Assembly (NCBI RefSeq): GCF_000585335.1 | Contig: NZ_KK073872.1 | Coordinates: 1,789,283-1,853,282, forward strand | Direction of reading: 5' to 3' | DNA length: 64,000 bases | From: Cloacibacillus evryensis DSM 19522 | GTDB taxonomy: Bacteria; Synergistota; Synergistia; Synergistales; Synergistaceae | Part shown: one piece after another, positions 4,208 to 31,756 of the stretch | Position numbering within the stretch: position 1 is the first letter of the stretch | Layout of the letters: each line of letters starts with the position of its first letter | Notes under the pieces: generated by a model | The model's input: only the letters and a program-made list of their open reading frames with translations | The model's database searches: none | Told to the model about the DNA's origin: nothing | Position numbers and translations under genes: made by a program

Positions 4208-4219
4208 GAGGAATAAGAG

Positions 4220-4744
4220 ATGATAGGAATACCTGAAAAACTGGTAAACGCTCGCGTTTTCAAAAACGGCAGCCAATTCCTTGGTGTAGCGAATATTGAC
4301 CTGCCACAGTTGCAGGCGATGACCACCAGTATAAAAGGCAGCGGTATCTCTGGCGAAGTTGATTCGGTGGTGACGGGGCACTACCAATCCATGCAGATGA
4401 AAATCCAGTTCCGCACACCCACAGACGCAAGCCTTGAGCTTTCTGCGCCAATAGCCCACGAGCTGGACTTTAGGGCGTCGCTCGACGTATCGGAGCCAAG
4501 GACTGGGCTACGAACAATATCGGGGATAAAGGTCTGGGTGAAGGGCACGCCAAAGTCAAACGGCCTTGGTAAATTCGAACCAGGAGCCACGATGGACAGC
4601 GAAGTCGAGCTTGAAGTGTTGGCTTTGGGCGTGTGGATAGACGGCGAGGAATGCGTCTATCTGGATAAGTTCAATTATATTTGTCGCGTGGCCGGCGTCG
4701 ATTATCTCACCGCAGCCAGAGCGGCGGAAGGAGTAGGAGATTAA
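4220..4744 (+). CDS. Major tail tube protein (FII family)
   Basis: 174 residues, AGGAGGAATAAGAG before the ATG. It shows the P2 FII-type tube signature: N-terminal VFKNGSQFLGVANIDLPQL, central strands ending in GYRTISGIKVW-like segment (GLRTISGIKVWVKG) and the C-terminal DKFNYICRVAGVDYL. It forms the inner tube that the sheath drives through the cell envelope. The stop overlaps the next start in a TAATG arrangement, indicating translational coupling with the assembly chaperone. Confidence 0.9.
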   Translation: MIGIPEKLVNARVFKNGSQFLGVANIDLPQLQAMTTSIKGSGISGEVDSVVTGHYQSMQMKIQFRTPTDASLELSAPIAHELDFRASLDVSEPRTGLRTISGIKVWVKGTPKSNGLGKFEPGATMDSEVELEVLALGVWIDGEECVYLDKFNYICRVAGVDYLTAARAAEGVGD

Positions 4745-5019
4745 TGGAGATAAAGCTCTCAAAAGAAATGGAATTTGAGGGGAAAAAATATGAGGCGCTC
4801 GACCTCGACCTAGATGCTCTTACTGGCAGGGATCTGATCAACGCGGAAAAAGAGGCGTCAGTGATGTTGTTCCGCCCCGCAACGGATATCGATAAGACAT
4901 ATCAGGTATGCGTCGCCGCGTTGGCCTGCAGGGTCCCCTCCGATATGCTAATGTCTTTACCTGGCAGAGATTTCTCAAAGATAACTTCCGAGGTGCAAAA
5001 TTTTTTGCTCGGAGTCTAG
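4744..5019 (+). CDS. Tail assembly chaperone, short form (gpE-like)
   Basis: 91 residues from the ATG that overlaps the tube-gene stop. Size, acidic helical character and position between tube and tape-measure genes match P2 gpE-type chaperones, which coat the tape measure during tail assembly. Near its 3' end lies a T-TTT-TTG heptamer (5001-5007) in the correct frame for -1 slippage, so this is probably the unshifted product. The longer in-frame start at 4681 lies within the tube gene and is rejected. Confidence 0.75.
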   Translation: MEIKLSKEMEFEGKKYEALDLDLDALTGRDLINAEKEASVMLFRPATDIDKTYQVCVAALACRVPSDMLMSLPGRDFSKITSEVQNFLLGV

Positions 5020-5174
5020 GCTCGCAGCCGGGGCAGACAGTACGGGAGATCTGTGTCGCCTTAAACAAAGCGACACAGACTCCAATATCATTCTGGATAG
5101 AGATGTCTCCGCTGGAATGGGAGCATTGGGCTGACGCTATCCATAAAATCTCGAAACAGTCAGAAAAGCGCTGA
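4744..5174 (+). CDS. Tail assembly chaperone, frameshift fusion (gpE+E'-like)
   Basis: A -1 shift at the heptamer 5001-5007 joins the first 88 codons of the short chaperone to a 55-residue extension read from base 5007 to the stop at 5174. The extension ends with the helical segment SPLEWEHWADAIHKI, typical of the second chaperone domain that contacts the tail tube or tape measure. The frame relation (+0 to -1), the long overlap of the two reading frames and the same T-TTT-TTG site used in P2 E/E' support a programmed event. The ratio of products cannot be seen from sequence. Confidence 0.75.
5001..5007 (+). other. Programmed -1 ribosomal frameshift site
   Basis: The heptamer is six T followed by G, placed as T-TTT-TTG relative to the chaperone frame (codons start at 5002 and 5005). 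Slippage gives TTT-TTT and continuation at GCT (5007). An overlapping A-AAT-TTT heptamer precedes it by three bases and is also slippery. The site lies four codons before the zero-frame stop. Confidence 0.75.
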
Positions 5175-5198
5175 TTGCGAAAATAAGTTTATCTTCTA

Positions 5199-5207
5199 TG
5201 GTATAAT
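5199..5207 (+). promoter_or_regulatory. Extended -10 promoter of the moron-like gene
   Basis: TG-G-TATAAT at 5199-5207 is a perfect extended -10 element just after the chaperone stop. A weak -35 (TTGCGA, 5175-5180) is 21 bp away, too far for normal spacing, so activity would depend on the TGn extension. Transcription would start about 5214, just before the AAAGGAGG site of the gene at 5229. Confidence 0.6.
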
Positions 5208-5228
5208 GAAACAAAAGGAGGCGGGAAC

Positions 5229-5366
5229 ATGATTCGACGTTACGATAACGATGAAGAAAACATCCATATTGAATACGATGAAACGCGCGATCGCATGATC
5301 GAGTGGGTCGCCCTTATTGTGGTTTTCTTGGCAATAGGGACAGTTCTCGCGCTTGTTTTTTCCTGA
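5229..5366 (+). CDS. Small single-pass membrane protein (moron-like insert)
   Basis: 45 residues with a strong AAAGGAGG site at 5215-5222. The N-terminal half is very charged (EYDETRDRMIEW) and the C-terminal half is one hydrophobic helix (WVALIVVFLAIGTVLALVF), so it is likely an inner-membrane protein with a cytoplasmic head. It has its own extended -10 promoter upstream and an intrinsic terminator 17 bp downstream, inside an otherwise continuous tail operon. This is the layout of morons, which are often expressed from the prophage and can alter host properties such as superinfection. I do not recognise the family. Confidence 0.6.
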   Translation: MIRRYDNDEENIHIEYDETRDRMIEWVALIVVFLAIGTVLALVFS

Positions 5367-5382
5367 TTTTTCAACGGTGACC

Positions 5383-5406
5383 GCCGCCCGCAAGGGCGGC
5401 TTTTTT
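5383..5406 (+). terminator. Intrinsic terminator after the moron-like gene
   Basis: Perfect 7-bp stem GCCGCCC/GGGCGGC (5383-5389 and 5394-5400) with a GCAA loop, directly followed by six T (5401-5406). It would stop transcription from the small gene upstream; read-through or antitermination is needed for late tail transcription. Confidence 0.85.
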
Positions 5407-5422
5407 ATTGCGAGGTGACATG

Positions 5423-8400
5423 ATGCCAGGGAAGGAATTAGAGCTATCCATCGCCATAGGCGGCTATCTGTATCCGCAACTTGGCAAAAGCATAAATAGA
5501 GCAAAAAAGGACCTTGACGCACTTGGAGTACAGGGAACCGAAACACAAAAAAAGCTTGAAGCCATCGGAACACTGAACCGCAATCAAATGGCCATGGAAT
5601 CCCAAACTAAGAAACTCAAGGAAGCTATCCGCAAGCTGAACACCGCAAATGAAGAACTGGCGAATTCGGATAAAAAGAACGAATCATCGCAAACAAAACT
5701 GACGCGCAAACGCGATGAAGCAGCTGCAAAAGTAGCCCAACTAACAAAGAAAACACGGGATCTGTCGAACGCCAATCAGGAATATAAAAAGAGAGTAGAG
5801 GCTCTCTACGGCCCCATAGGCAAACTAAAGGCGTCGGAGGACGCGTTGCGCACATCAAAAGAAAAGATGATCCGGCTACAACTAAGGCAAGCGGATCTTG
5901 ATGCCGCACGCGAAAAACGCACACAGCGGATGTACGCCGCGCAGATGCGTATTACAGCCGCAACAAGGATCGCCTCCGTAATGCAAGGACCTGTGCGACA
6001 AGCAATGGAAGGTGAGGATCTAAATTTCAGGCTCGGAACCGTAATAAACGTGCCCGAAAAACACAAAAAAGAAGCGCTCCGCAAAGCTAGGGGGATTGGC
6101 GCGGAGCTTGCTAAAGCAGGATACGCAAGTTACGCGGAAACACAAGACATACAGTATGCTCTAAATTCCGCAGGATTGACTGCATCTCTGGCAAGAAGCG
6201 CTACAAAAACCGTAGCCTCTGTATCTAAGGTCACCAATGGCAGCATGGAACAAGTGAGCGAAGTAATGGCTACAGCATATAACAATTTGGGCACCAGATT
6301 GAATGGCAGTGATGAACAAAAATTTTCGCGCATAGGAGATTTGCTCGCAAAAATTCAGTTTAAGTACCAGATTAGGGACTTCGGCCAACTTGGCGAAAGC
6401 ATGAAAAGAGGGTCCGTCGCCATAAGCCAATATAACGCCCAGCTTGAACAATCCCTCACCGCAATTGGCTTGCTAAACAGCGCCGGGCTTCAGGGCGGAG
6501 AAGCCGGAACGGCATATTACGCGATGCTAAAAGGCTTCATGAAGACGGCGCAGGATATCCCTAGCGTCCTCAAAAAGACCAAAAGCGGCGAATTGGATGT
6601 GGTCGCTTCGCTGAAAGAATTGATGCGCGGTACGTCAAAAATGTCAGAAATTGACAGAGCGCAGTTTATGACGGAAAAGTTCGGCGATGAAGGCGCTAAA
6701 GCGCTTGTGCCCCTGATGGACAAGATAAAGGAATTGGAGGATGGCTACAAAGACGTAGAAAAATCATCCCAAAATATTGTTGCCAAAAATATGGATGATT
6801 ACTTGAAACTTACCTCCACAAGACTAAACGCAGCCAAAGAGTCCGCCTATGCGCTTGCAAGGTCGCTGGGCGGCGCGCTTGCTCCAAGTGCCATCACACT
6901 TTTTAATTTTCTCGGCAAGGTCGCTGACAAAATAGGCTTTTTTGCGGATAAGTACCCAATGCTGACCAAGGTAATCGTATTCAGTGCCGCCGCGCTGGTC
7001 GGAGTGAACCTCCTTGCTGCCAGCGTGCTGTATCTTGCCTCCGGGTTTAGCACGCTGACAACGGCAATTGGCGGCAGTATCCAGTTTGGGAGGCTTTTTA
7101 AAAGCGCCCTCGACGGCGTTGAAGTCTCGGCTGCGAAAGGCGGCAAAGCGGCAACTCGCCTTGCAAAAATATGGAAGGGCCTGCGAAACCCAGGAAGCCT
7201 CGCCCTGAAAGTTAAAAACAGCAAAGTGGGCGATATTGCAGGCAAGACATTTGCCTTGAGTAAAAATGCGGCAACAAAGACATGGCTGTATCTTAAAAAT
7301 GTGAAATGGGATGCCGTATTTCTAAAAGCGAGAGCAGCCTTTAGCTTCGTGGGGAAAATGGCCGTGTCTCTGGGCCGGCAAGTTGTGTCTGTTGCAGCCC
7401 AAACGGCGTCTTTGGTTCGTGGAAAAATCGGGCTGCTAATAAACTTTATAAAAGCTATCCGCTGGGGTGCCGCTATTGGCAAAATGAAAAGCGCTTTTAT
7501 CGGCGGCAAGGCGATCATCGGCGGCATCGGCAAGGCGATGCTGGCGATGATGACAGGGCCGCATGGGCTCATGATTGCCGGCATCGTGGCTGGCGCAATC
7601 GCTATCGGAGCGGCGGCATACCTCATATACAAGAACTGGAGCAAAATAAAGGTGTTTTTCTCGGACCTCTGGAAACGTTTTGCCGAAAAGTTCCCTTGGG
7701 TGGCGGGCATCATCAAAGGCGCAGCCATGGTTATAGGCGGCGCACTCGATGTTATATGGGGTGCTCTTAAGAAAATATGGGAATGGGGCTCAAAGGCGCT
7801 GCAATTCTTAGGCTTTGGGGGAGGGACTCCCAAAGCGCCATCGGGCACTGCTGTCACAGGTAAGATGAAAGCATCTAAAACAAGCCGAAAGATGCCGAAG
7901 ATGGCTAAGGGCGGATACGTGTCGAAACCAACCGTAGCGCTGGTAGGCGAAGCCGGAGACGAAATAATTGTACCCGTAACAGACCGAAGGTATGGAATCC
8001 AGAGGCTCGCGGAGGCCGCAGCGCATCTTGGCTTCCACATCGCCCCGGTACAAAACGGAGCCGTCGAAGGGCACGGCAGGCCAGCAATGCAGGCGTTGAG
8101 AGAAAAGACGCCAATATCCAAAATCGCAGCAGTAACGAAACATATTACCGTTCGCAACCTAGGCTCTGGCAACAACGAAACAACAAACAAAAGTAGTTTT
8201 GCCGAGCTGATATACAACATTACACAAAAGCTGATATCCGAACCCGCGGTAAGCAAGAAGAGCGATATCATAGAGAAATTACAGAATCCTCACTTAGGAG
8301 CAAAGGCGGAGGCTATTGGCGACAAAGCTGCTCCCAAAATAACATATGCCCCGAATTACACTTTTTATGGCCCAGACAGAGAAAACCTCGTTGACGTCCT

Positions 8401-8476
8401 GAGGGAAGACAAAAAACGATTTAAGAGGTTGTTAGAAGAAATAATGCACGATAAAGAGCGGGTGAATTTCGCATGA
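5423..8476 (+). CDS. Tail tape measure protein
   Basis: About 1017 residues from the second of two adjacent ATGs (5420 and 5423); the later one has the better spacing from GAGGTG. The first ~180 residues are long coiled coil (Lys/Glu/Gln rich, with NRNQMAMESQTKKL), then a TP901-type core with the NGSMEQVSEVMATAYNN segment, followed by hydrophobic helices around residues 500-535 and 700-745 (ALVGVNLLAASVLYL; GLMIAGIVAGAIAIGAAAYL) that could insert into the host membrane. It sets tail length and is ejected ahead of DNA. It lies directly after the assembly chaperone, as expected. Confidence 0.9.
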   Translation: MPGKELELSIAIGGYLYPQLGKSINRAKKDLDALGVQGTETQKKLEAIGTLNRNQMAMESQTKKLKEAIRKLNTANEELANSDKKNESSQTKLTRKRDEAAAKVAQLTKKTRDLSNANQEYKKRVEALYGPIGKLKASEDALRTSKEKMIRLQLRQADLDAAREKRTQRMYAAQMRITAATRIASVMQGPVRQAMEGEDLNFRLGTVINVPEKHKKEALRKARGIGAELAKAGYASYAETQDIQYALNSAGLTASLARSATKTVASVSKVTNGSMEQVSEVMATAYNNLGTRLNGSDEQKFSRIGDLLAKIQFKYQIRDFGQLGESMKRGSVAISQYNAQLEQSLTAIGLLNSAGLQGGEAGTAYYAMLKGFMKTAQDIPSVLKKTKSGELDVVASLKELMRGTSKMSEIDRAQFMTEKFGDEGAKALVPLMDKIKELEDGYKDVEKSSQNIVAKNMDDYLKLTSTRLNAAKESAYALARSLGGALAPSAITLFNFLGKVADKIGFFADKYPMLTKVIVFSAAALVGVNLLAASVLYLASGFSTLTTAIGGSIQFGRLFKSALDGVEVSAAKGGKAATRLAKIWKGLRNPGSLALKVKNSKVGDIAGKTFALSKNAATKTWLYLKNVKWDAVFLKARAAFSFVGKMAVSLGRQVVSVAAQTASLVRGKIGLLINFIKAIRWGAAIGKMKSAFIGGKAIIGGIGKAMLAMMTGPHGLMIAGIVAGAIAIGAAAYLIYKNWSKIKVFFSDLWKRFAEKFPWVAGIIKGAAMVIGGALDVIWGALKKIWEWGSKALQFLGFGGGTPKAPSGTAVTGKMKASKTSRKMPKMAKGGYVSKPTVALVGEAGDEIIVPVTDRRYGIQRLAEAAAHLGFHIAPVQNGAVEGHGRPAMQALREKTPISKIAAVTKHITVRNLGSGNNETTNKSSFAELIYNITQKLISEPAVSKKSDIIEKLQNPHLGAKAEAIGDKAAPKITYAPNYTFYGPDRENLVDVLREDKKRFKRLLEEIMHDKERVNFA

Positions 8477-8682
8477 GAACCATTACAACAATGAGCGGAG
8501 ATACGTGGGATGTAATTGCATGGCGCATATGGGGCGACGGCGCTGACCAAGGCCACATGGCGGATCTCATCGGGGCCAACCAGCAGCATGTGCAGACAGC
8601 AATGTTCCCAGGGAATGTGACGCTGGCAGTACCGGAAATAACGGAAGAAGAGCCGGCATCGGTCCCGCCGTGGAGGCAGTGA
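8473..8682 (+). CDS. Tail protein X (LysM-like, gpX)
   Basis: 69 residues, overlapping the tape-measure stop by ATGA. It has the gpX pattern: a short LysM-like fold with GDTWDVIAWRIWG and a middle QQHVQTAMFPGNVTLAVP segment. In P2-like phages it is encoded beside gpD/tape measure and may bind peptidoglycan or link baseplate parts. Length (60-70) is typical. Confidence 0.8.
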   Translation: MRTITTMSGDTWDVIAWRIWGDGADQGHMADLIGANQQHVQTAMFPGNVTLAVPEITEEEPASVPPWRQ

Positions 8683-8683
8683 G

Positions 8684-9802
8684 ATGCCGGAAGTGAAAAA
8701 AAATGACAAGGCACGCCGGGCGCGCCTTGAGATAACAATCGCGGGGGCTGATATCACGAAGGATATCGCCCCTTTTCTTGTCTCTTTTAGCTATGAAGAT
8801 AACCGCAGCGGCGAAGCCGACTCCATCTCCGTAACGCTAGAAGACAGAGACGGGCGCTTTCGCGGCGACTGGTTCCCGAAGAAAAATTCTACGGTCACGG
8901 CGGCTATAAAAGTATCTGATTGGGAAAAAAACGGCGATAGCCAAATCCTGAAATGTGGAACTTTTGAACTCGACGAAATAGAGGCAACGCAAGGCTCATT
9001 AACGATGAAAGGGGTATCCACCCCGATCACCGCGGGGGGCCGCCGCGAGAAAATAACGCGAACATGGGAAAAGGCGTATTTGAAGACCGTTGCCCAGGAT
9101 GTGGCGAAAAAGGCCGGCTTGGAGCTGAATTATACGGCTGTAGATAATCCATATTTCGGGAGAATAGACCAGAAGCAGGAGTCTTCGTTGGAGTTCCTTT
9201 CCCGGATTGTACATAAAGCGGGATTGGCAATCAAAATTGTGCACGGTAAAGTGGCGATATACAACGAGGTTGACGCAGAAAAGGAGGAGGCCGCGTTCAC
9301 CATAGTACGCACAGGCGGCTATGTAACAGATTGGAATTTTCGCACGCAGTCCGTGGATACGTATAAATCATGCGAAGTCAGCTATTTTGACCCGAAAACC
9401 AAGGTCACATTCACGGGCACAGCTACATCTTCCGGCGAGAATGACCCCAGCGGACAAGTGCTGCGAATTAGCAATGAACGAGTCGAAAGCAATGCCGAGG
9501 CAATAAAACTCGCCGAGAAAAAACTGCGCGATTCCAACAAGCGTGAAGCGACCGGACATCTGGACTGCGTGGGCAATACCCTCATGCTCGATGGCATGGT
9601 TATAGCCGTCTCCGGTTTCGGCACTTTTGACGGCAAATATCGCATCGCAAAATCAACACACTCCATAGATAGCAGCGGCTATACAACCGCTGTAGACCTG
9701 GAATCAGGTCCGCCATCCGTGCGGGCCGGAGGTAAAGGCGAGAAAAAAGCGGACAAAAAGAAGAAGGGCAAGAAGGATTGGAGTAAATACTGGAAGGAGT
9801 GA
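8684..9802 (+). CDS. Baseplate hub protein gpD (late control D family)
   Basis: 372 residues, one base after the previous stop. It has the GPD/Phage_GPD family layout: N-terminal strand-rich domain (SVTLEDRDGRFRGDWFP), a middle EFLSRIVHKAGL segment and a C-terminal LysM-like region (YRIAKSTHSIDSSGYTT). The last 25 residues are almost all Lys/Gly and likely disordered. In P2 and in contractile injection systems this is the hub that carries the spike. It overlaps the following spike gene by 4 bp. Confidence 0.85.
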   Translation: MPEVKKNDKARRARLEITIAGADITKDIAPFLVSFSYEDNRSGEADSISVTLEDRDGRFRGDWFPKKNSTVTAAIKVSDWEKNGDSQILKCGTFELDEIEATQGSLTMKGVSTPITAGGRREKITRTWEKAYLKTVAQDVAKKAGLELNYTAVDNPYFGRIDQKQESSLEFLSRIVHKAGLAIKIVHGKVAIYNEVDAEKEEAAFTIVRTGGYVTDWNFRTQSVDTYKSCEVSYFDPKTKVTFTGTATSSGENDPSGQVLRISNERVESNAEAIKLAEKKLRDSNKREATGHLDCVGNTLMLDGMVIAVSGFGTFDGKYRIAKSTHSIDSSGYTTAVDLESGPPSVRAGGKGEKKADKKKKGKKDWSKYWKE

Positions 9803-10278
9803 GAACCACGGCCAACTACGAAGACCTGTTTCGCATCGGCGAAATTTCCGCCGTATACCCCGAGCGACATCGCGTTCGCGTAAAATTTGCCGACAAAGAC
9901 GGGCTTGTATCTGATGAGCTGCCGGTGCTCGTCGTCGGCTCGCTCAAAAACAAAGCGCAATGCCTCCCCGACGAGGGCGAACTTGTGCTTTGCGCTTTTC
10001 TGCCCAGCGGCGAAGAGGCGGGCTTCGTGCTCGGGTCATTTTACTCGGAGGCGGATCTGCCTCTGTCAAACGACCGCGATGAATATGTCCTGAAAATTCC
10101 CGGTGGCGGTTGTATCGCCATGCATCGAAAAAATCACACGATCACTCTGGTCGATTATCACGGGTCAAAGATGGTGTGGAAAAACGGCAACATCACGCTA
10201 AAAAGCGCGGCGAATATCTATCTCAATCCAGACGGCGACGTGCCAGTGCCGGCGCACATCTCGGCGCAGTTTGATTAG
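9799..10278 (+). CDS. Baseplate assembly / spike protein gpV
   Basis: 159 residues from a GTG that overlaps the previous stop; AAGGAG lies just upstream. An OB-fold start (IGEISAVYPERHRVRVKFAD) followed by GEEAGFVLGSFYSEADLP and a short beta-helix tail (KNGNITLKSAANIYLNPDG) is typical of gpV puncturing spikes. It is followed by a PAAR protein that would cap its tip. Confidence 0.85.
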   Translation: MRTTANYEDLFRIGEISAVYPERHRVRVKFADKDGLVSDELPVLVVGSLKNKAQCLPDEGELVLCAFLPSGEEAGFVLGSFYSEADLPLSNDRDEYVLKIPGGGCIAMHRKNHTITLVDYHGSKMVWKNGNITLKSAANIYLNPDGDVPVPAHISAQFD

Positions 10279-10287
10279 GCAGAAAAG

Positions 10288-10581
10288 ATGCCAGCACTGA
10301 CAAGACAGGGCGACAACTGCACGGGGCACGACGATTGCCCTCCGCGTCCGCTTGCCACTGGAAGCCCAAACGTATTCGTGAACGGTCGCCCAGCCGGGCG
10401 AGTAAATGCTGATCAGTACGAAAACCACGGGTGCTTCGCCCATGCTTCCCACAGCGCCGTGATAGCATCCGGCAGCAGCAATACTTTTATCAACGGCTTC
10501 CCCGCTGGGCGCATCGGCGACCCCGTAAGCTGCGGCGGCAGTGTTGCCGTGGGCAGCCCAAACGTATTTGTAGGAGGGTGA
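10288..10581 (+). CDS. PAAR-domain spike tip protein
   Basis: 97 residues with paired repeats SPNVFVNGRPAGR, SNTFINGFPAGRIGD and SPNVFVGG, and Cys/His residues spaced for a metal site (CTGHDDC, HGCFAHASH, SCGG). This is the PAAR cone that sharpens the tip of gpV/VgrG spikes. The placement right after gpV supports the call. ATG is used with a weak AGAAAAG site. Confidence 0.9.
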   Translation: MPALTRQGDNCTGHDDCPPRPLATGSPNVFVNGRPAGRVNADQYENHGCFAHASHSAVIASGSSNTFINGFPAGRIGDPVSCGGSVAVGSPNVFVGG

Positions 10582-10609
10582 TATATATGGGATAGGCAGC
10601 TTTGGCAAA

Positions 10610-10987
10610 GTGATATTTGAGGCAAGTTCAGATTTGGTACGCACCTTCTCCGAACTACAGCAAAAAAATTCGGCTCGCTACGCCGAACACGAGGTTATCG
10701 GCAAAAAGCCGTTACTTGAATTCCTCGGGCCGGGACTTGAAGAAATATCCTTTAAGCTACAGCTAATGTCCAGCTTGGGCGTCAAACCCGATGAAGAGGT
10801 GAAGGTGCTGCAGGAGATGCGCGACGCCGGGGAGGTAGGACAGCTCATTTTTGGCGAGATCAAAATCGGCAAGTTCGTCATAGTAGACCTATCCCAGCAG
10901 GAAGGGCCACGGGATAGGCATGGCGCGCCTACGTGGATCGAGGTCGAGCTAACCATAAAGGAGTATGTTTCACATGCTGACAAATGA
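10610..10987 (+). CDS. Tail protein gpU-like, start codon unclear
   Basis: 125 residues from the GTG at 10610 (VIFEASSDLVRTFSEL...). It matches P2 gpU-type proteins, including GLEEISFKLQLMSSLG and the C-terminal TWIEVELTIKEY; these cap the tail or join baseplate parts. Relatives usually begin with a few more residues ending in GSFG-V-F; that segment (IGSFGK) is coded in frame here from an ATA at 10592. The ATG at 10587, ideally spaced from GGAGGG, is in another frame and stops at once. So either ATA or GTG is used, or a small frameshift has damaged the start. Confidence 0.7.
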   Translation: MIFEASSDLVRTFSELQQKNSARYAEHEVIGKKPLLEFLGPGLEEISFKLQLMSSLGVKPDEEVKVLQEMRDAGEVGQLIFGEIKIGKFVIVDLSQQEGPRDRHGAPTWIEVELTIKEYVSHADK

Positions 10988-11312
10988 ATTGGAGGTAATG
11001 CTTGACGGTAAAACTGATATATTCGGAGCAATAGGCTTACAGAATATACATAATTGTCTTAACGCTATCGCCTCGACCCGAATCGGAAGCGTGCCGCTCT
11101 ATCGCCATTTCGGCACGGATTGGGAATGGGTAGATAAACCGGAACCATACGCAATGGCAAAGTATCGCGCCGACCTTATGGAGGCGATAGACAAATACGA
11201 GCCGAGAATAAAGGTGATATCCATCTCGTTCAGGCGGAGTACAGCGGATGCGTTCGACGGAAAACTCTATCCGATTGTAAGATTTAAAATCAGAGAGGGG
11301 GTGGAAATATGA
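10974..11312 (+). CDS. Baseplate wedge protein W (gp25-like)
   Basis: 112 residues from the ATG at 10974, which sits 10 bp after AAAGGAG; the ATG at 10965 is too close to it. The GPW/gp25 pattern is clear: IFGAIGLQNIHNCLNAIASTRIGSVP near the start and PRIKVISISF in the C-terminal half. The protein forms the baseplate wedge that starts sheath assembly. It overlaps both neighbours slightly, indicating a tight operon. Confidence 0.85.
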   Translation: MLTNELEVMLDGKTDIFGAIGLQNIHNCLNAIASTRIGSVPLYRHFGTDWEWVDKPEPYAMAKYRADLMEAIDKYEPRIKVISISFRRSTADAFDGKLYPIVRFKIREGVEI

Positions 11313-12454
11313 GCTTGTTCAGCACACTGCCGCAAGTGGAATTCGCGCCCAAAGAGGCAGATGCAATACTGGAAGAGCTCGTCGCCAGATATGAAGATGC
11401 CGCTGGGATAACGCTATACCCCGCAGACCCGGTGCGGCTTTTTCTGAACACGATCGCCTATGAACTAGCGCAGCAGCGCAGCTTGATAGATTACGCCGCG
11501 AAGATGAATCTACTGGCGTATGCGCAGGGCGATTACCTTGACCACCTCGGTGCTTTTGTCCCTGTGGCACGATTGCCAGCAACTGCGGCTACCGTGACAG
11601 TACGGTTTGCATTATCCGCTGTGTTGGATATGGCCGTAACCATTCCTGCGGGCACGAGGGTAACGCCAAGAGCATCACCCGATCTCTATTTTGCCACGGA
11701 TGCCGTTGCGGTTGTTCCTGCTGGCTCGCCGTACGCTGATTGTGTATGTACATGCACATACACAGGAAAACAAGGCAACGGTTTTTTGGCAGGGCAGGTA
11801 CTTTCACTGGTAGATCCGATCGAATACGTTAAGAGCGTGCTGAATGTTACTACTAGCGCGGGCGGCGCAGATATCGAAGGTGACGAGAGTTACCGAGAAC
11901 GTATCCAGCTGGTACTTGAATCGCTCTCAGTCGCCGGTCCAATTAACGCTTATCGATATTGGGCGCTTTCCGCAAGCGCAAAAATCGCGGACGTATCCGT
12001 CGCCGGACCAGCAGAAGATGCCGAGATAGACCCTGGCAACGTATACATATACCCGCTCCTGCAGGATGGATGTTTGCCGGACGCAGAGACCCTACAGGCA
12101 GTAAATGCGGTCGTGAATGCGGATGATATACGACCGCTTACGGATAACGTGCATGTCTGCGCGCCAACCCCAATAAAGTTCACGCTTACCATTACGTACT
12201 GGATAGCAAAAGATATGCAGACGCAGGCCGTGGCCATTAAAAAAGCGGTAGATGCGGCCATTGCAGAGTGGATAGTGTGGCAGAGAAATAAGCTGGGGCG
12301 CGATATCAACCCGTCAGAACTTATACACAGAGTAATTGCCGCGGGCGCAAAAAGAGCGGTCGTAACTTCTCCATCATTTACCAAGGTGAGCTACAAGCAA
12401 GTAGCGATTTGTGCATCTTCGGGGATTACGTTTGGAGGGCTGGAGGATGGCTAA
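11309..12454 (+). CDS. Baseplate assembly protein J
   Basis: 381 residues, ATGA overlap with the previous gene and GGGGGTGG as ribosome site. It has the gpJ/gp47 signature: LFLNTIAYELAQQRSLIDYAAKMNLL near residue 55, GDYLDHLGAFVPVAR, ESYRERIQLVLES-like segment (DESYRERIQLVLESLSV) and the C-terminal INPSELIHRVIAAGAKR. It builds the wedge ring with W and I. Confidence 0.9.
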   Translation: MSLFSTLPQVEFAPKEADAILEELVARYEDAAGITLYPADPVRLFLNTIAYELAQQRSLIDYAAKMNLLAYAQGDYLDHLGAFVPVARLPATAATVTVRFALSAVLDMAVTIPAGTRVTPRASPDLYFATDAVAVVPAGSPYADCVCTCTYTGKQGNGFLAGQVLSLVDPIEYVKSVLNVTTSAGGADIEGDESYRERIQLVLESLSVAGPINAYRYWALSASAKIADVSVAGPAEDAEIDPGNVYIYPLLQDGCLPDAETLQAVNAVVNADDIRPLTDNVHVCAPTPIKFTLTITYWIAKDMQTQAVAIKKAVDAAIAEWIVWQRNKLGRDINPSELIHRVIAAGAKRAVVTSPSFTKVSYKQVAICASSGITFGGLEDG

Positions 12455-13982
12455 GCTATTGCCAGACCTGAGTCTGTTTGACATTCTCCCTGATTCAATA
12501 TCCGACATTACAGAAGTGCGCAATGGAGCAACAGCAATCGATCCTGAGTTAAGGAGAATATCAGTAGCAACGAAAGAAGCCCTCTTGCTCTCACGCATCG
12601 ACGAACTTGACGAAGATACAATCGATCTGCTGGCTTGGCAATTCCACCTCGATGTTTATGAGCCCGCCCCCCTTTCGATCGACATAAAAAGGAAGCTCAT
12701 AAAAACGGCCATCTCCTGGCATCGTAAAAAAGGAACGAAATGGGCGGTATTGGAGCTACTCTCCACGCTAGGCTATGACTGCGAGATATTTGAGTACAAG
12801 GATCTGATTGCGGCATCTGAAAAAGCCGGCGTAAAGTTCCTTGATGGTACGTGGGATATAGCGACCAATAACGGCGTGGATATATTCGCTCCAGTCGAGG
12901 GCTTCCCGGATCTTGCGAATTGGGCCTGCTTTGCGGTAAAAACAAATCTGACCGCATTCGATCACCCTAATTGGCCGGATGATCTCAGGTGGGCTGTGAA
13001 CGCAGCCAAACCAGCCAGGTCGTACGCGCTGTACTGGTATTGGATTTATATGCATTTTATCGTTAAGGTCCTTGCCAGAATGACGCGGCTGTACATGAAA
13101 AAAGAGTTTAGAGTATGCTATCCGTGGTGCTGGAACGTCATCGACCCATACGCGCCATGGTATTTAGGCACAGACGGAATCACATATGCCCTTGGCGACG
13201 AAGGACTATACCTAGACGGAACATGGTGTTTAGGCGATGGAACGAACCCCGTATACGACAGATATGTCTACGACTGCGGGTTTTATATCGATTTGGCAGC
13301 ATCTAAACAAATACATCTTCGTTATGGTAGCGTCGAGTATATAGCCTCCGGCGAACCCACGCCACTTTGTGTCGGCGACAGGTGGTATCTCGACGAACGT
13401 AACGCATTTGTACTCCGCTCCGTAAAAACGATGCGCAAAGGCTCCAATTTGAAACTCAATCCGCTAACATCTGTCGGTTCTGCATCGCACTACCACATTA
13501 CGTTTGGGCACAATGCAACGTATCTCGACGATTTTTATTATCTCGACGGCAGTTGGAATATTGCCGCCGACACGAAAATCGCAATCGGCGACCTACGAAA
13601 AGGTACTTGCCTAGACGGGACGTGGGATATCGCCAATGAAGGCACGTACAGCATTAACGGCGAGCGCCAGTTTTCGAAAACTGTACCTATACCACTTCGC
13701 GGGCCATTAATCGGAGAGCGGTGTGAGCGATATATCGGTGATACAATCTGCCTCGATCTTGACGGCACATGGGAGATCGCCGATGAATATTATTTAGGCG
13801 ACGAGCTGTACCTCGACGGCTCCTGGGACCTTGGGGCGGGATTCCATCTCGGAAATGAAGACCGCAATTATATAGACGGCTCATGGGATATATGTGATGA
13901 GACGCTCTACCTTGACGGCACGTGGAACATCGACGACCCGATGCCAGAGTGTCATGGCGTCGTCGAAATACATAAAGTTTAG
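12447..13982 (+). CDS. Tail protein I with C-terminal LDG[ST]W repeat extension
   Basis: 511 residues from the ATG at 12447 (TGGAGG just before). Residues 1-200 match gpI baseplate proteins (LLPDLSLFDILPDSI..., DLLAWQFHLDVYEP, RKLIKTAISWHRKKGTKWAV), a family normally about 180-220 long. The remaining 300 residues are an extension with eight copies of a short [LI]DG[ST]W motif, each followed by a hydrophobic pair, near bases 12839, 13211, 13542, 13611, 13758, 13811, 13873 and 13912. This looks like a repeated beta unit and may form the fibre-attachment or display part. It overlaps gpJ by 8 bp. Confidence 0.8.
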   Translation: MAKLLPDLSLFDILPDSISDITEVRNGATAIDPELRRISVATKEALLLSRIDELDEDTIDLLAWQFHLDVYEPAPLSIDIKRKLIKTAISWHRKKGTKWAVLELLSTLGYDCEIFEYKDLIAASEKAGVKFLDGTWDIATNNGVDIFAPVEGFPDLANWACFAVKTNLTAFDHPNWPDDLRWAVNAAKPARSYALYWYWIYMHFIVKVLARMTRLYMKKEFRVCYPWCWNVIDPYAPWYLGTDGITYALGDEGLYLDGTWCLGDGTNPVYDRYVYDCGFYIDLAASKQIHLRYGSVEYIASGEPTPLCVGDRWYLDERNAFVLRSVKTMRKGSNLKLNPLTSVGSASHYHITFGHNATYLDDFYYLDGSWNIAADTKIAIGDLRKGTCLDGTWDIANEGTYSINGERQFSKTVPIPLRGPLIGERCERYIGDTICLDLDGTWEIADEYYLGDELYLDGSWDLGAGFHLGNEDRNYIDGSWDICDETLYLDGTWNIDDPMPECHGVVEIHKV

Positions 13983-13996
13983 GGGGGGTGATAAAT

Positions 13997-14377
13997 ATGG
14001 CAGAAGGAGTGACAACAAATGCTTTCCGCAAGCGCATCGCCGCACAGATGGCTGGAGGCGCGGTTTGTCCCAAAATTGCACAGATGGCCTTTGGCGATGG
14101 CGGACATAACGCGGATGGTACCGCAAAAGCGGCCAACGCGGAGCAAACGGCTTTAAATCACGAGCTGCTTCGCAAGGACCTGCTCACTGTACAGCAGGAG
14201 GATGGCTATTCGGTCACGGGCATGGGGAGATTGCTAAAAACGGAATTAGTCGGCCAAACGATATCCGAGGCAGGCTTGTTGGACGCATCTGGCAATTTGG
14301 TGGGCCTCAAAAACTTCGCAATGAAAATAAAAGAAGAAGATGAGTGGTACGACGTGAGCATTCGCGTCGATTTCTAA
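13997..14377 (+). CDS. Tail-collar fibre N-terminal-like protein
   Basis: 126 residues from the ATG at 13997, 8-9 bp after GGGGGG; a GTG at 13988 is possible. The sequence resembles the N-terminal tail-collar domain of P2 gpH-type fibres (KIAQMAFGDGGHNADG, LNHELLRKDL, TELVGQTISEAGLLDASG) that fixes fibres to the baseplate, but here it is a separate short protein. It lies between gpI and the fibre gene. Confidence 0.65.
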   Translation: MAEGVTTNAFRKRIAAQMAGGAVCPKIAQMAFGDGGHNADGTAKAANAEQTALNHELLRKDLLTVQQEDGYSVTGMGRLLKTELVGQTISEAGLLDASGNLVGLKNFAMKIKEEDEWYDVSIRVDF

Positions 14378-15354: not shown

Positions 15355-15720
15355 ATGAGAATAACTGAAATGCAGTCAGGCCCGCACGCGCTATATAGCC
15401 TTGCGGGTACTATTTTGTCTGTTGGAGATATCTCCATTGACCTTTTTGCCGAGCAAGACGACACACAGCGGATAATCGATATCTGCGCAGACAAAAACGG
15501 CGCGCTTACAAGGGGCATAGGCGAAGCATACGTGGTCAACGTCCTTATCCCACCAGCCCATTACGTAGATGTCCCAACCGGAGAAAACGACGAGGATGGC
15601 AGACCCGTGTACATACCAGAAAAACAGCCGCTTGACACCGAGCGTGTAGAACTACTGCTTTGGAGATACGCGAAGCCTGTCACCCAGCCCCAGACAGGAA
15701 CAATAACAGAGGAGGAATAA
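15355..15720 (+). CDS. Unknown protein between fibre and DGR target
   Basis: 121 residues, AAAGGAGAC before the ATG. I do not recognise the family. The protein is mixed alpha/beta, with MQSGPHALYSLAGTILSVG at the start and an acidic C-terminal tail (TITEEE). It contains a YVPE-like segment (RPVYIPEKQPLDTERVELLLW) reminiscent of small tail-fibre accessory or assembly proteins. Its stop lies 5 bp before the DGR target start, and the target's GAGGAGG site lies inside its last codons, so the two are co-expressed; it may be a chaperone or adaptor for the variable protein. Confidence 0.5.
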   Translation: MRITEMQSGPHALYSLAGTILSVGDISIDLFAEQDDTQRIIDICADKNGALTRGIGEAYVVNVLIPPAHYVDVPTGENDEDGRPVYIPEKQPLDTERVELLLWRYAKPVTQPQTGTITEEE

Positions 15721-15725
15721 CCCAC

Positions 15726-16835
15726 ATGCCGACAATCTTTACAAAGGATACGCTGCGCGCCAGCGTGGAGGCCGCAACCGGCGGCCACGTAACCGTACTC
15801 TACGACGATAAAGGGTATCCGAGCTACATGTACAAAATACCCAAATTCACCATCGGATTCGCGTTCAAGTCCTTACTCGGGGACAGCTGGGCAAACTCGG
15901 CGCTCGCTTCGCGCGAGAACGAGACTTTTCCTGCGTTTGTAAAAAATGGCGTAGAGAAGAGCGAGCTATACATCGGCTGCTACAAAGGCAAGTTGTACGA
16001 TGGCCGTCTCTGTTCGGTCCCCGGCGTAGATCCCACAACATACATCAATTTCGACGCCGCTTCAAAATCCGCTACCGACAAGGGTGAAGGGTGGCACATT
16101 ATGTCCATCTGGGAACGCGCCGCCCTGATACACTGGTGCGCAAACAATAAAAAGATCCCGCGCGGCAACACATACTACGGACGACACCATAGCGCGACCT
16201 ACGAGTTTGGCGCGAGACAAGACGGCGGCAAACCTGGCGACACCACCGGAGACCCTGCGGCGCGCACGCTCACTGGCTCCGGCCCCGCCTCATGGAGACA
16301 CAACGCGGAGCAGTTCGGGATAGATGATCTCTGCGGCAACATCTACGAATGGCTTGTAGGCTTCAAGCTCGTGGACGGCGTGATCAAGATGATCTCCGAC
16401 AACTACTTCGACCAGGCGGAAACATCGTGGCCTGGCAGCCTCGGAGCTCTCGATTCCACGGGTGGCACAACAGACGGCACCGGAGTAACGGACGCGGGCG
16501 CGCCAGTGTTCGCCTCCGCTGTGACGAAAAAGACAGGGGAGGAAAAATATGCCGTTCAGCCGACATACTCATCCCGCGCGGCGGCAACAGGATACACCGT
16601 GCCGATCGGCCTGATCCTCGCTGGCATCGCCCCTGCAACCCGCATCTCCGGCACCTACGATACGGATGGCGCGCCCAACGGCGCACTCTACATGCGCAAC
16701 GTCGGGGAGCGCTTGCCGCTCGCTGGTGGCAGCTGGAGCAACACGTCCGACGCCGGGGTCGCCTGCCTGGACCTCGATAATCTGCGCTCGACCTCGGGCA
16801 GCAGTGTCGGCGCGCGTCCCTGCTTTGTCGCGTAG
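15726..16835 (+). CDS. DGR target: variable receptor-binding protein, C-type lectin/FGE-like fold
   Basis: 369 residues. The C-terminal two thirds carry the formylglycine-generating-enzyme-like lectin pattern (WERAALIHWCAN; FGIDDLCGNIYEWLVGF; SRAAATGYTVPIG; LPLAGGSW...GARPC), the fold used by most DGR variable proteins. The last ~42 codons are the variable repeat. Ten codons that are Asn in the template correspond to residues 336, 338, 339, 342, 349, 351, 352, 356, 358 and 360; here they read S, S, N, D, D, D, N, T, G and S. Invariant Trp, Gly, Cys and Arg residues between them keep the fold. The gene is last in the tail/fibre series, so it is probably the host-recognition tip. Confidence 0.9.
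   Translation: MPTIFTKDTLRASVEAATGGHVTVLYDDKGYPSYMYKIPKFTIGFAFKSLLGDSWANSALASRENETFPAFVKNGVEKSELYIGCYKGKLYDGRLCSVPGVDPTTYINFDAASKSATDKGEGWHIMSIWERAALIHWCANNKKIPRGNTYYGRHHSATYEFGARQDGGKPGDTTGDPAARTLTGSGPASWRHNAEQFGIDDLCGNIYEWLVGFKLVDGVIKMISDNYFDQAETSWPGSLGALDSTGGTTDGTGVTDAGAPVFASAVTKKTGEEKYAVQPTYSSRAAATGYTVPIGLILAGIAPATRISGTYDTDGAPNGALYMRNVGERLPLAGGSWSNTSDAGVACLDLDNLRSTSGSSVGARPCFVA
16705..16824 (+). repeat. DGR variable repeat (VR)
   Basis: About 120 bp at the 3' end of the target gene, aligned without gaps to the template repeat 575 bp downstream. In 16706-16824 there are ten differences, and all ten fall at adenines of the template: nine A to G and one A to C (16792). C, G and T positions are identical throughout. 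One further A to G at 16705 extends the pattern. The final 18 bp (16806-16823) contain no adenine in the template and are identical, which is the expected GC-rich end of the initiation-of-mutagenic-homing site. Confidence 0.95.
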
Positions 16836-16840
16836 CGACA
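16826..16840 (+). other. Hairpin just downstream of VR (homing-associated)
   Basis: Perfect 6-bp stem TGTCGC/GCGACA with a 3-base loop GTA, starting one base after the end of VR similarity and covering the stop codon of the target gene. In the Bordetella phage BPP-1 DGR a short hairpin/cruciform a few bases after VR stimulates target recognition; this one has the same place. Confidence 0.7.
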
Positions 16841-16846
16841 CTCGAG

Positions 16847-16901
16847 AATCCGAAAATCCGGCCAATCCGTAATCCGGTTTTTGGTTTTAGGTTTTAATCC
16901 G
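16847..16901 (+). repeat. AATCCG repeats between VR and avd
   Basis: Five copies of AATCCG at 16847, 16855, 16864, 16871 and 16896 lie in the 83-bp gap between the target stop and avd. Part of the segment (about 16855-16881) could fold as an imperfect stem with CCGG/CCGG paired and A/T runs outside, giving a weak terminator-like structure. Function unknown; it lies next to the homing hairpin. Confidence 0.5.
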
Positions 16902-16918
16902 AAAAAGGGGGTTTGTCT

Positions 16919-17275
16919 TTGGCAGTTGAAGAACTTAGGATATTGGCAACGGCAGAGCGCATGGAAACATGGCTACATAGAACATTGGAAAAAATTCCAA
17001 AGTATGCAAGGTTTCCGGTATACGCGCAGATGAAGGGTACTATGCGTATTTTGCGCAGACTAATACTCGAATGCAATCAGGCCAGGGATAAAACCTCTTA
17101 TTTCACCAAGATAGATCTGGAGCTTTTGCTGCTCCGATCTGACGTGCGCGTTATGCTCGAATCGCGTCTCATCACACCGGGGGAATTTAAAGTTTGGGGC
17201 GAGGAGATCGATAAGATTGGCAGACAATTAGGCGCATGGGGTAAAGCCTGCCATATATATACGGCAAAGGGGTAA
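16919..17275 (+). CDS. avd: DGR accessory variability determinant (Avd)
   Basis: 118 residues from TTG at 16919, seven bases after GGGGG; a TTG at 16913 is too close to that site. The protein is all helical, basic, and matches the Avd four-helix-bundle family (LATAERMETWLHRTLEKIPKYARF, FTKIDLELLLLRSDVRVML, KVWGEEIDKIGRQLGAW). Avd forms a pentamer that binds the DGR reverse transcriptase and template RNA and is required for mutagenic homing. Its position between VR and TR is the standard order. Confidence 0.9.
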   Translation: MAVEELRILATAERMETWLHRTLEKIPKYARFPVYAQMKGTMRILRRLILECNQARDKTSYFTKIDLELLLLRSDVRVMLESRLITPGEFKVWGEEIDKIGRQLGAWGKACHIYTAKG

Positions 17276-17279
17276 AGCT

Positions 17280-17399
17280 AGAAGCGCTTGCCGCTCGCTG
17301 GTGGCAACTGGAACAACACGTCCAACGCCGGGGTCGCCTGCCTGAACCTCAATAATCTGCGCTCGAACTCGAACAGCAATGTCGGCGCGCGTCCCTGCT
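17280..17399 (+). repeat. DGR template repeat (TR)
   Basis: Non-coding copy of the 3' end of the target gene, 5 bp after avd. Read in the target frame it would encode ten Asn codons (AAC/AAT at 17306, 17312, 17315, 17324, 17345, 17351, 17354, 17366, 17372, 17378), a bias typical of DGR templates because AAY codons can change to many residues but never to a stop. About 24 adenines are available to mutagenesis. The stretch 17381-17398 has no adenine (IMH* side). Confidence 0.95.
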
Positions 17400-17562
17400 C
17401 TCGCCCGGAAAGACAGATGCCGCACGGCTACGGCTATGCGGCCAGTGCACGGGCAAAAGGAGCGTTACCCCTTCCTCGCAGCAAACGGGGAAAAGATTAA
17501 CTGGGTCCGGCCTCAAGTAGCGAATGCGAAAGCGGTCGGACTTTTTATGAGGTGAAGATAAA
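17400..17562 (+). ncRNA. TR-RT spacer, likely part of the DGR template RNA
   Basis: 163 bp without a convincing gene. In BPP-1 a spacer of similar length between TR and the reverse transcriptase is needed as part of the template RNA for cDNA priming. An ORF reading through TR and this segment (17288-17500) has no ribosome site and is not counted as a gene. A GAGGTGAAG site for the reverse transcriptase lies at its end (17549-17557). Confidence 0.45.
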
Positions 17563-18618
17563 ATGCCTAAAACCACAGGAAAACTATGGGAACAGGTAAT
17601 ACATTTCGACAATATATATTCGGCATACCTTGCGGCCCAGGAGGGGCACCGCACCAAGCGCCCAGCACTTGCTTTCAGGGATCGGCTTGAAGAAAACCTC
17701 ATACAGCTGCAAAACGAGCTTATCTGGCACCAGTGGCGGCCATCGCCGCCCCACTATTTTACAATCAAAGATCCGAAGCCGCGCTGCATCGCAGCGCCCG
17801 CGTTTCGCGATCGTGTTGCTCACCATGCGCTCGTACAAATTATCGAGCCTTGCTTCGAGCGGCGATTCATAAGCGATAGCTACGCCTGTCGCGCCGGGAA
17901 AGGAACACACGCTGCGGTGAGGCGCGCCCAGCAGATGATTCGCTCGGCGCAGGATGCATGGTGTGGACACGTTTACATCTTCAAGGGTGATATCAAAAGC
18001 TATTTTAAAAGCATCGACCACGGCATCTTGAAAAAGATTAACCGAAGGACGATACGCGACCGCGATGCACTCTGGATGCTGGACAGGATCATCGATGCCG
18101 GCGGGGACGGCGACAAAGGGCTAGATATAGGAGCGCTAACAAGCCAACTTGAGGCCAATGTTTATGCCGATATTTTGGACCACCAAGTGAAGGATGTATG
18201 GAGGTACCAATATTACGAACGCTATATGGACGATTTTATCATCCTCGGCGGCAGCAAAACAGACGTCAGGGCCGCGATGCGCGACGTAAGCAATTTCGTG
18301 GATGAGAATCTCATGCTGAAGCTCAACCCGAAATCGGGAGTGTTCCCGGCGTCGCAGGGGCTTGACTTCTGCGGCTACAGGATATGGGCGACGCATATCC
18401 TGCCCAGAAAAAGGAACACAAGAGGGATACAGAAAAAGCTCCGGGGAATGGCGAGGCGATATGCCGAGGGCGCACTTGACATTGACGTTGCATGGCAGAC
18501 CATAGCGTCGTATCTCGGCTATATGAAGCATTGCAACGGCTACCGTACGAAGGCAACATTTCTTGAAGATTTGGTATTCAGTCGCGCAAGGAGGAAGGAC
18601 GACGAAAACAATCAATAA
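17563..18618 (+). CDS. DGR reverse transcriptase
   Basis: 351 residues, ATG after GAGGTGAAG. Retroviral-type RT motifs are in order: motif 2 around PKPRCIAAPAFRDRVAHHAL (72-90), motif 3/A with FKGDIKSYFKSIDH (140-153, catalytic Asp 143), the DGR-specific IGALTSQ (189-195, matching IGxxxSQ, in place of QG of group II introns), YMDD (221-224), then LNPKSGVFPASQGLDFCGY. No maturase or endonuclease domain follows, and the length (about 350) is typical for DGRs. It makes adenine-mutagenised cDNA from TR RNA that replaces VR. Confidence 0.95.
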   Translation: MPKTTGKLWEQVIHFDNIYSAYLAAQEGHRTKRPALAFRDRLEENLIQLQNELIWHQWRPSPPHYFTIKDPKPRCIAAPAFRDRVAHHALVQIIEPCFERRFISDSYACRAGKGTHAAVRRAQQMIRSAQDAWCGHVYIFKGDIKSYFKSIDHGILKKINRRTIRDRDALWMLDRIIDAGGDGDKGLDIGALTSQLEANVYADILDHQVKDVWRYQYYERYMDDFIILGGSKTDVRAAMRDVSNFVDENLMLKLNPKSGVFPASQGLDFCGYRIWATHILPRKRNTRGIQKKLRGMARRYAEGALDIDVAWQTIASYLGYMKHCNGYRTKATFLEDLVFSRARRKDDENNQ

Positions 18619-18825: not shown

Positions 18826-19476
18826 ATGGCAATAACAAATCGCGGCAAAGTATGGCTTGCCATATTAGCCGCTTGCCTGCTTTTCTGGCTACTATGTTTT
18901 TACGTTGCACGTGCAGCTTTCGGTGCTACTCCGGCGCAGGAATTTTTCGCGGCGGCCCGCGCCCAGCCCGGAATAAACGCCTACGCGGCGACTTGTCAAA
19001 GCGCTATGGAAACTGGATACTGGCAGAGTGAGCTTTGGCGCAGGGCTTACAACGGCGCGGGCATCAAGGCACCGCTAGCATGGCGAAAGAGCGGCAAGCC
19101 ATACATACGCATCGCAAGCCCAGAGTACAGCAACGGTAAATATATAACAAGGGAATCGTATTTCCGAAAGTACGATTCCCTTGTTATATTTCTGTCCGAC
19201 TATGCCCAAAAAATAGCAATAGATTACCCCTATTCGCATCGCCACCTTGATAACTTCTGGCTCTATTTTGCGGGCATGTATAGAGGGAGGGTTGGTAATT
19301 GGGCCACGGATCATCAATACTATGAAAAGTTCGCTCAAATGGCCGTAAAACTCGCGCCTGAAATACTCGGCCCTGCATGGCGCGCAAAGCTGCTTTGCGC
19401 CTACGAATACGCCAAAAATGAACTTGAGCCATGGCAGAGAGATGTTATCAACAAGCAATTAAGGGAGGTTATGTAA
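18826..19476 (+). CDS. Glucosaminidase-domain endolysin with N-terminal anchor
   Basis: 216 residues, GAGGAGGAATAATCCC before the ATG. A hydrophobic N-terminal segment (KVWLAILAACLLFWLLCFYVARAAFG, residues 8-33) suggests a signal-anchor like SAR endolysins. The rest resembles GH73/FlgJ N-acetylglucosaminidases: ATPAQEFFAAARAQPGIN, then SAMETGYWQSEL with the likely catalytic Glu, NGAGIK, and FRKYDSLVIFLSDYA. It would cut the glycan strands of peptidoglycan. A second hydrolase follows at once. A 19-bp perfect inverted repeat lies within the gene. Confidence 0.75.
   Translation: MAITNRGKVWLAILAACLLFWLLCFYVARAAFGATPAQEFFAAARAQPGINAYAATCQSAMETGYWQSELWRRAYNGAGIKAPLAWRKSGKPYIRIASPEYSNGKYITRESYFRKYDSLVIFLSDYAQKIAIDYPYSHRHLDNFWLYFAGMYRGRVGNWATDHQYYEKFAQMAVKLAPEILGPAWRAKLLCAYEYAKNELEPWQRDVINKQLREVM
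19142..19189. repeat. 19-bp perfect inverted repeat inside the endolysin gene
   Basis: Arms 19142-19160 and 19171-19189 are exact reverse complements (ATATAACAAGGGAATCGTA), with a 10-bp loop. The right arm codes the family-typical YDSLVI segment; the left arm codes YITRES. No T-run follows, so this is not a normal terminator. It could arise from template switching. Confidence 0.85.
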
Positions 19477-19477
19477 A

Positions 19478-20059
19478 ATGAAAATAGTAATAGACCCTGG
19501 ACACGGCGCCCCCGACAGTGGCGCCATTGGCCCGCGAGGTACTCTCGAGGCAGATATCAACCTCAGCGTTGCGATAGCTCTTTCGAAAGAGTTGTGCCGG
19601 CGCGGGCATGTAGCATCGCTGACACGCTCCGGTCTGCGCCGAATTTTCGCCGACAACAGAGGGGCCGACCTCTCCGCGCGCCCAGCCTTCGCCAACCGCA
19701 TCGGCGCGGATTGCTTTGTATCGCTCCACTGTAATGGGGCGGCCAATGTTGCTGCCAGTGGCTTCGAGATATACACCACTATCGGACAAGATCGCAGCGA
19801 CGCGCTCGCTACGGAGATCTTCCGTGCGTGGAGCAATGTTTTCAGGGCCCAGCGTAAACGTACAGATTACACCGACGGTGACCCAGACAAAGAGGCCAAC
19901 CTAAAAGTGTTGCGTGAATGCCGTGTGCCATCTGTTTTGATAGAGATGGCGTTTATCAGTAACCCTGCAGAGGAACAATGGTTACTCAGTCCGACAAATC
20001 ACCACAGAATGGCTTTCGTTATAGCCGATGGCATAGTGCGTTGGGGCAAAAGTGTATAA
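19478..20059 (+). CDS. N-acetylmuramoyl-L-alanine amidase (Amidase_3 type)
   Basis: 193 residues, GGGAGGTT before the ATG. It has the zinc-amidase motifs: KIVIDPGHGAPDSGAIGP (His 9), E24 (GTLEADINLSVA), SLHCNGAA (His ~87) and the late VLIEMAFISNPAEE (catalytic Glu). No signal peptide is seen, so it would act as an endolysin after holin action. Two tandem peptidoglycan hydrolases with different bond specificity in one lysis cassette is unusual. Confidence 0.9.
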   Translation: MKIVIDPGHGAPDSGAIGPRGTLEADINLSVAIALSKELCRRGHVASLTRSGLRRIFADNRGADLSARPAFANRIGADCFVSLHCNGAANVAASGFEIYTTIGQDRSDALATEIFRAWSNVFRAQRKRTDYTDGDPDKEANLKVLRECRVPSVLIEMAFISNPAEEQWLLSPTNHHRMAFVIADGIVRWGKSV

Positions 20060-21609: not shown

Positions 21610-21631
21610 ATCAGTAGCCAAAGAAACAAAA

Positions 21632-21660
21632 AGGACTTTCGGAGTAACTCCGAAAGTCCT
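21632..21660 (-). terminator. Terminator of the tRNA operon
   Basis: 14-bp perfect palindromic arms (21632-21645 and 21647-21660) around one base; read on the minus strand the stem ends in a T-rich run (complement of AAACAAAA at 21624-21631). It closes the minus-strand tRNA array. Confidence 0.75.
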
Positions 21661-21670
21661 GTAATAGCGA

Positions 21671-21745
21671 TGGTGGGCGATATTGGGTTCGAACCAACGA
21701 CTTCCACCGTGTGAAGGTGACACTCTACCGCTGAGTTAATCGCCC
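21671..21745 (-). tRNA. tRNA-Val (anticodon CAC)
   Basis: Reverse complement folds as a full cloverleaf: acceptor GGGCGAT/ATCGCCC, anticodon loop TTCACAC, T loop TTCGAAC; CCA is encoded (21671-21673). Last gene of a five-tRNA operon and nearest to the prophage end. Confidence 0.9.
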
Positions 21746-31434: not shown

Positions 31435-31756
31435 GTTTTTCCCCTTTTCTTTTATTGATTTTCCATGCTGTTCTATCTGTACATGCGGAAAGATTACTAT
31501 CGACAATATTAGTAAGCAAATCAGATAGTTTTCTTTTTAAGCAATTTATTCTGCTTTTGTTTTCTGTTTATAGAAAATAACCGGTGATAAGGCGGCTGTT
31601 ATATAAAAACAGCACGCTCTGCTTTTTAGTCAGCTTAAGTTGATTGTTACGAAACATGCGGCAAAAATACAAGGCGCCCTGCATGACGGCCCTGCCTGCC
31701 GCAGCCATGCAAACGAGGCTGAACCGGCAGCGTCATTGCGCCCGGCAGGGTCAAGA
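31435..31756. other. Intergenic region upstream of the autotransporter
   Basis: About 320 bp between the autotransporter start and the folT stop. AT-rich near the autotransporter. A possible minus-strand promoter (TTGCTT with TAATCT 17 bp away, near 31515-31487) is weak. Nearer folT the sequence 31660-31755 is GC-rich with several short inverted segments, which may be a folT terminator, but no clean T-run is seen. No gene is found. Confidence 0.4.

Follow-up and report, generated by a model that had tools for sequence, protein, structure and literature searches.

Identification of a BPP-1-type diversity-generating retroelement in a contractile-tailed prophage of Cloacibacillus evryensis DSM 19522

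The diversity-generating retroelement (DGR) of Bordetella phage BPP-1 is arranged in the order mtd-avd-TR-brt, and its homing requires a hairpin, GC-rich in the stem and with GRNA as loop, after the variable repeat (VR); in the hairpins of other phage DGRs the stem measures 7-10 bp (PMC3240598). The BPP-1 spacer between the template repeat (TR) and the reverse transcriptase (RT) gene folds and recruits both RT and Avd (PMC12875486). About half of the changes made by DGRs in general are A>G (PMC6642488), and the DGR literature describes the length of the spacer following VR as flexible. The variable protein TaqVP of Thermus aquaticus (PDB 5vf4) belongs to a DGR and has a C-type lectin fold (PMC6328139), while most of the differences among Pseudoalteromonas ACA1, ACA2 and a prophage copy fall in VR (PMC10612066).

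Here we analyzed a stretch of 64,000 nucleotides of the C. evryensis genome (contig NZ_KK073872.1, positions 1,789,283 to 1,853,282), which we call the window and to which the coordinates below refer unless another locus is named. We are nearly certain that it carries a complete BPP-1-type DGR in a 44.9-kb prophage with a contractile tail, where it would diversify the tip of a tail protein. This identification rests on the anatomy of the cassette, on homology, on past adenine-specific mutation, on conserved synteny and on variation confined to VR in a related cassette. An earlier note on this DNA had listed all the DGR parts in order; the target with its VR, Avd, TR and RT are indeed present, all of them on the forward strand, but the hairpin is not a canonical one.

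The prophage is integrated at a tRNA-Val gene. Its right attachment site (21629..21720) lies in the 3' half of tRNA-Val(CAC) as one copy of a 92-bp direct repeat (96% identical), the left copy being located next to a tyrosine integrase (L038:16995-18185) at a distance of 44.9 kb. Replication, terminase, portal and head genes were found between the attachment sites, and the prophage looks complete. Upstream of the cassette is a block of contractile-tail genes (2729..14377, forward strand) encoding sheath, tape measure, tail X, baseplate, PAAR, gpJ, gpI and collar fibre, with matches to baseplate J and Tail_P2_I; downstream, a glucosaminidase and an amidase (18826..20059, forward strand) are the likely lysis genes. 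The proposal that the DGR closes the contractile-tail cluster of a prophage is thus borne out by the sheath-to-Tail_P2_I genes on one side and the lysis genes on the other. Within the glucosaminidase gene lies an inverted repeat of 22 nt whose loop measures 4 nt (19142-19189). The prophage also encodes a ParA-like protein (L031:4124-4933), a DNA methyltransferase carrying a fused ParB-like domain (L031:12512-13954) and, apart from the left-end integrase, another tyrosine-recombinase domain, a short one of 205 aa (L031:11677-12294). Beyond the prophage, downstream, lie a large autotransporter with an outer-membrane barrel (28075-31506, reverse strand) and an IS21 transposase (24428-25978). Elsewhere in the same genome six weaker RT matches (L013, L016, L017, L018, L019 and L020) were detected, probably group II intron RTs.

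The core of the cassette is a 117-nt direct repeat pair with an offset of 575 nt in the window, VR (16708..16824) forming the 3' end of the target gene and TR (17283..17399) standing between avd and the RT gene. VR and TR differ at nine positions, and all nine fall on TR adenines; with 23 A in 114 bases of TR, the chance of such an outcome is ~6e-7. Eight of the changes are A>G and one is A>C, an excess of A>G which is weak and post hoc when set against relatives (P ~0.013). Counting of the TR codons gave ten AAY, the same number as the Asn-coded variable sites predicted by the earlier note, and twelve codons containing an A. The GC-rich 3' end of VR (16806..16824) is identical to TR and has no changed adenines, and by analogy with BPP-1 we infer that it serves as the IMH. 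No further copies of VR or TR were found in the closed 3.49-Mb genome, and a DNA pattern built from TR matched only an unrelated viral contig.

The target gene (15726..16835) encodes a DGR variable tail protein of 369 aa (phrog_2889, E 7e-103); the reading frame can be opened upstream at 15660, the ATG at 15726, which has a ribosome-binding site, being the likely start. No Pfam domain was found in the protein, and a scan of viral contigs with it returned no match. Its best solved relative is TaqVP (E 1e-59 alone, 2e-111 when an alignment was used), aligned over nearly the whole length; this homology supports a C-type lectin fold for the target, and VR occupies the same C-terminal place as in TaqVP, as expected from the lectin-fold protein with a 3' VR that had been proposed. 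A single-sequence structure prediction reached a pLDDT of 34 and was discarded. Homologs of the target are present in VP58.5, ACA1, BalMu-1 and Bise, and judging by its homologs the target is a probable receptor-binding tail protein.

Orthologous cassettes with the same gene order were found in other genomes of the same taxonomic order (loci L033, L034 and L035), and numerous phage contigs from metagenomes have them as well; a close RT is present in 9 of 183 genomes of that order, C. evryensis included. The nearest relative, L033, has an identity of 65% for RT, 78% for the target and 67% for Avd. Across 156 VR/TR pairs of relatives, 2001 of 2214 mismatches lie at TR adenines, a figure that is descriptive because the pairs were selected for adenine mismatches. 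Three related cassettes from different metagenomes (L024, L025 and L026) are identical over 2.86 kb (4266-7125, spanning target, Avd, TR and RT) except at 26 sites, all of them in VR; 20 of the 26 are at TR adenines (P ~2e-8), and TR is invariant. The adenine-linked variation of VR that the earlier note proposed to look for is therefore documented for a relative of the C. evryensis element, whose RT is 45% identical. Of note, when L024 (4200-7300) is compared with L025 and L026, the flanks of the cassette diverge abruptly on both sides, which looks like a transfer of the DGR between phages as one module. In one related genome (G020, contigs C38 and C46, loci L033 and L035) there are two distinct DGR cassettes, whose RTs share 65% and 40% identity with that of the prophage.

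Moreover, the spacer that follows VR contains a phased AATCCG repeat (16847..16902): four units, at 16847, 16855, 16864 and 16871, are followed by another at 16897. In L033 the four units recur with identical spacing, and the linkers between them differ in sequence. To describe the equivalent in other cassettes, a YTG run was defined as at least four units recurring every 6-9 nt within the post-VR spacer; the prophage and L033 have TCCG in place of TCTG and are not scored by this definition. Such runs occur in 43 of 77 non-redundant cassettes (this one and its relatives), where dinucleotide shuffles give an expectation of ~1.5 cassettes and control stretches of the same loci a rate of ~0.2%; in a more distant set they occur in 13 of 49 cassettes. 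Unit spacings peak at 7 and 8 nt, and the runs sit from -20 to +50 relative to the end of VR, with almost none elsewhere over -600 to +900. In L100, L117, L050 and others the units are placed between VR and the hairpin. The unit is not constant in sequence (ATCTG, ACCTG, AACTG and others are found), yet its phase and place are retained, a pattern suggestive of constraint on the array rather than recent copying, although these cassettes are related and thus not independent. Pairing of the array (ATCTG) with CAGA, conserved in the spacer of the template RNA, was considered and rejected, since cassettes with CATG-type arrays keep CAGAAG and no covariation was seen. As to whether the array takes the place of the hairpin, the association between the two across cassettes changes sign with the definition of the hairpin.

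What this array does can be read in two ways. As the repeat always stands between the stop codon of the target and avd, it could be a translation or transcription leader of avd, unrelated to target recognition; its position, fixed relative to VR, speaks against this, though a leader role is still compatible with it, and we give this explanation rather less than an even chance. More tentatively still, and as a doubtful proposal, an array of about four YTG units (here TCCG) every 7-8 nt may be, in a large group of phage DGRs, a conserved cis element in target recognition, perhaps one on which Avd or RT docks when the DNA is single-stranded; in the prophage and its nearest relative, where the units are now AATCCG and the usual hairpin is absent, the array might act alone. 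We found no description of a phased repeat beside VR in the accessible DGR literature. The majority of the related cassettes have such a repeat, which points to a so far overlooked stretch of the target site, accessible to existing DGR reporters.

The same region was expected to hold a hairpin, and on this point the claim of the earlier note is weak. A GC-rich stem of 7-10 bp with a GRNA loop was not found after VR in the prophage cassette; the only candidate is a weak hairpin, TGTCGC-GTA-GCGACA (16826..16840, forward strand), with a perfect 6-bp stem and a 3-nt GTA loop, which overlaps the target stop codon. The canonical hairpin is likewise absent from L033, and a GRNA hairpin is missing from several other cassettes; being common but not universal in DGRs, its absence was not used to exclude a DGR. 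It could nevertheless be argued that the element worked in the past and is now inactive or very weak, the target site having lost the structure on which BPP-1 homing depends (PMC3240598). We regard such a loss of function as unlikely, since RT, Avd, TR and the template-RNA spacer are all intact, L033 has a different, adenine-specific VR despite its own lack of a canonical hairpin, and other cassettes do without a GRNA hairpin too. We consider that the DGR is likely to be presently active in the prophage.

The RT (17563..18618, forward strand; 351 aa) contains IGALTSQ and YMDD, in agreement with the IGxxxSQ and YMDD motifs that had been read from the sequence, and matches phrog_1423 (E 2e-122) as well as RVT_1. 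Its best solved relative, using an alignment of 14 relatives, is 8ub7 (E 4e-93), which we take to be the BPP-1 DGR complex. The gene avd (accessory variability determinant; 16919..17275, forward strand) has a TTG start aligned with the ATG of L033, and its product scores 52 bits against Pfam bAvd (cut-off 40) and also matches phrog_3206 (Avd protein of DGR); in NCBIfam its score of 72 is below the cut-off of 80. RT and target, which the earlier note had recommended to search against DGR collections, thus belong, together with Avd, to DGR families. That the RT is instead a group II intron or retron enzyme beside an incidental repeat pair, for which NCBIfam offers a sub-cut-off hit among group II intron RTs (127 bits vs 300), is contradicted by the nine of nine changes at adenines, the adjoining Avd, the DGR-type target and the conservation of the cassette in many phages, and we consider it extremely unlikely.

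Between TR and the RT gene, the 3' spacer of the template RNA (17400..17544, forward strand) matches the Rfam family RT-14 (RF02921) over the full model, with 62.2 bits against a gathering score of 48.1. Twelve other cassettes also score above threshold: L033, L034, L025 and L030, and 8 of 18 in a further set (L046-L049, L051, L058, L079 and L087). In every cassette with a mapped TR end the match starts beside TR, and because the matches begin directly at the TR end we assign the Rfam RT-14 RNA to the DGR template RNA, of which it forms the 3' spacer. This link may already have been stated in print. It provides a ready covariance model with which DGRs can be found and typed.

Taken together, these elements are best explained by the following mechanism. 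An RNA containing TR, folded in its 3' spacer (RT-14), would be bound by RT and Avd; the RT would then copy TR with errors opposite adenines, RNA priming of the copy and the role of Avd being modeled on BPP-1. By the retrohoming route of the same phage, the mutated cDNA would replace VR beside the IMH and the downstream cis elements. Up to twelve codons, ten of them for Asn, could in this way be altered on a C-type lectin surface which probably binds the host receptor, as suggested by TaqVP and other homologs for both fold and binding.

When compared with known systems, the cassette is one more well-formed DGR, in a closed genome and with defined prophage ends, and it is ordinary as a DGR; the post-VR array and the RT-14 link weigh more than the cassette itself. 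We found no relevant open paper on DGRs in Cloacibacillus, nor, by title, in Synergistota. The earlier note had called cassette and target undescribed, which holds for this copy but not for the kind: VP58.5, BalMu-1, Bise and ACA1 are annotated with the same target type and cassette, so that the arrangement with homologous targets is already known from cultured phages, and it has been discussed for ACA1 and ACA2 (PMC10612066).

With BPP-1 the prophage element shares the order of parts, adenine-specific differences between VR and TR, the Avd and RT families and a prophage integrated at a tRNA gene; BPP-1 differs in its target family, in being a podophage where the tail here is contractile, and in its spacer of 4 bp, which leads from VR to a canonical hairpin and lacks the phased repeat. 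The DGRs of Vibrio VHML and VP58.5 and of Pseudoalteromonas ACA1 and ACA2 encode homologs of target, Avd and RT, arranged likewise and placed where the tail genes end, the target being 33-36% and the RT 39-40% identical to those of the prophage; the annotated RT gene of VP58.5 and ACA1 takes in TR. Bacillus BalMu-1 and Pseudomonas Bise have the same cassette after contractile-tail genes, followed in BalMu-1 by lysis genes; their RTs are 39% and 33% identical, respectively, and both have a hairpin with a GGTA loop. TaqVP is homologous along the length of the target, though diverged in sequence, and its structure has been solved whereas the target here is known from its sequence. Finally, RT-14, listed in Rfam as an RT-associated sRNA, is matched over its whole model by the spacer between TR and RT, and it corresponds here to the 3' part of a DGR template RNA.
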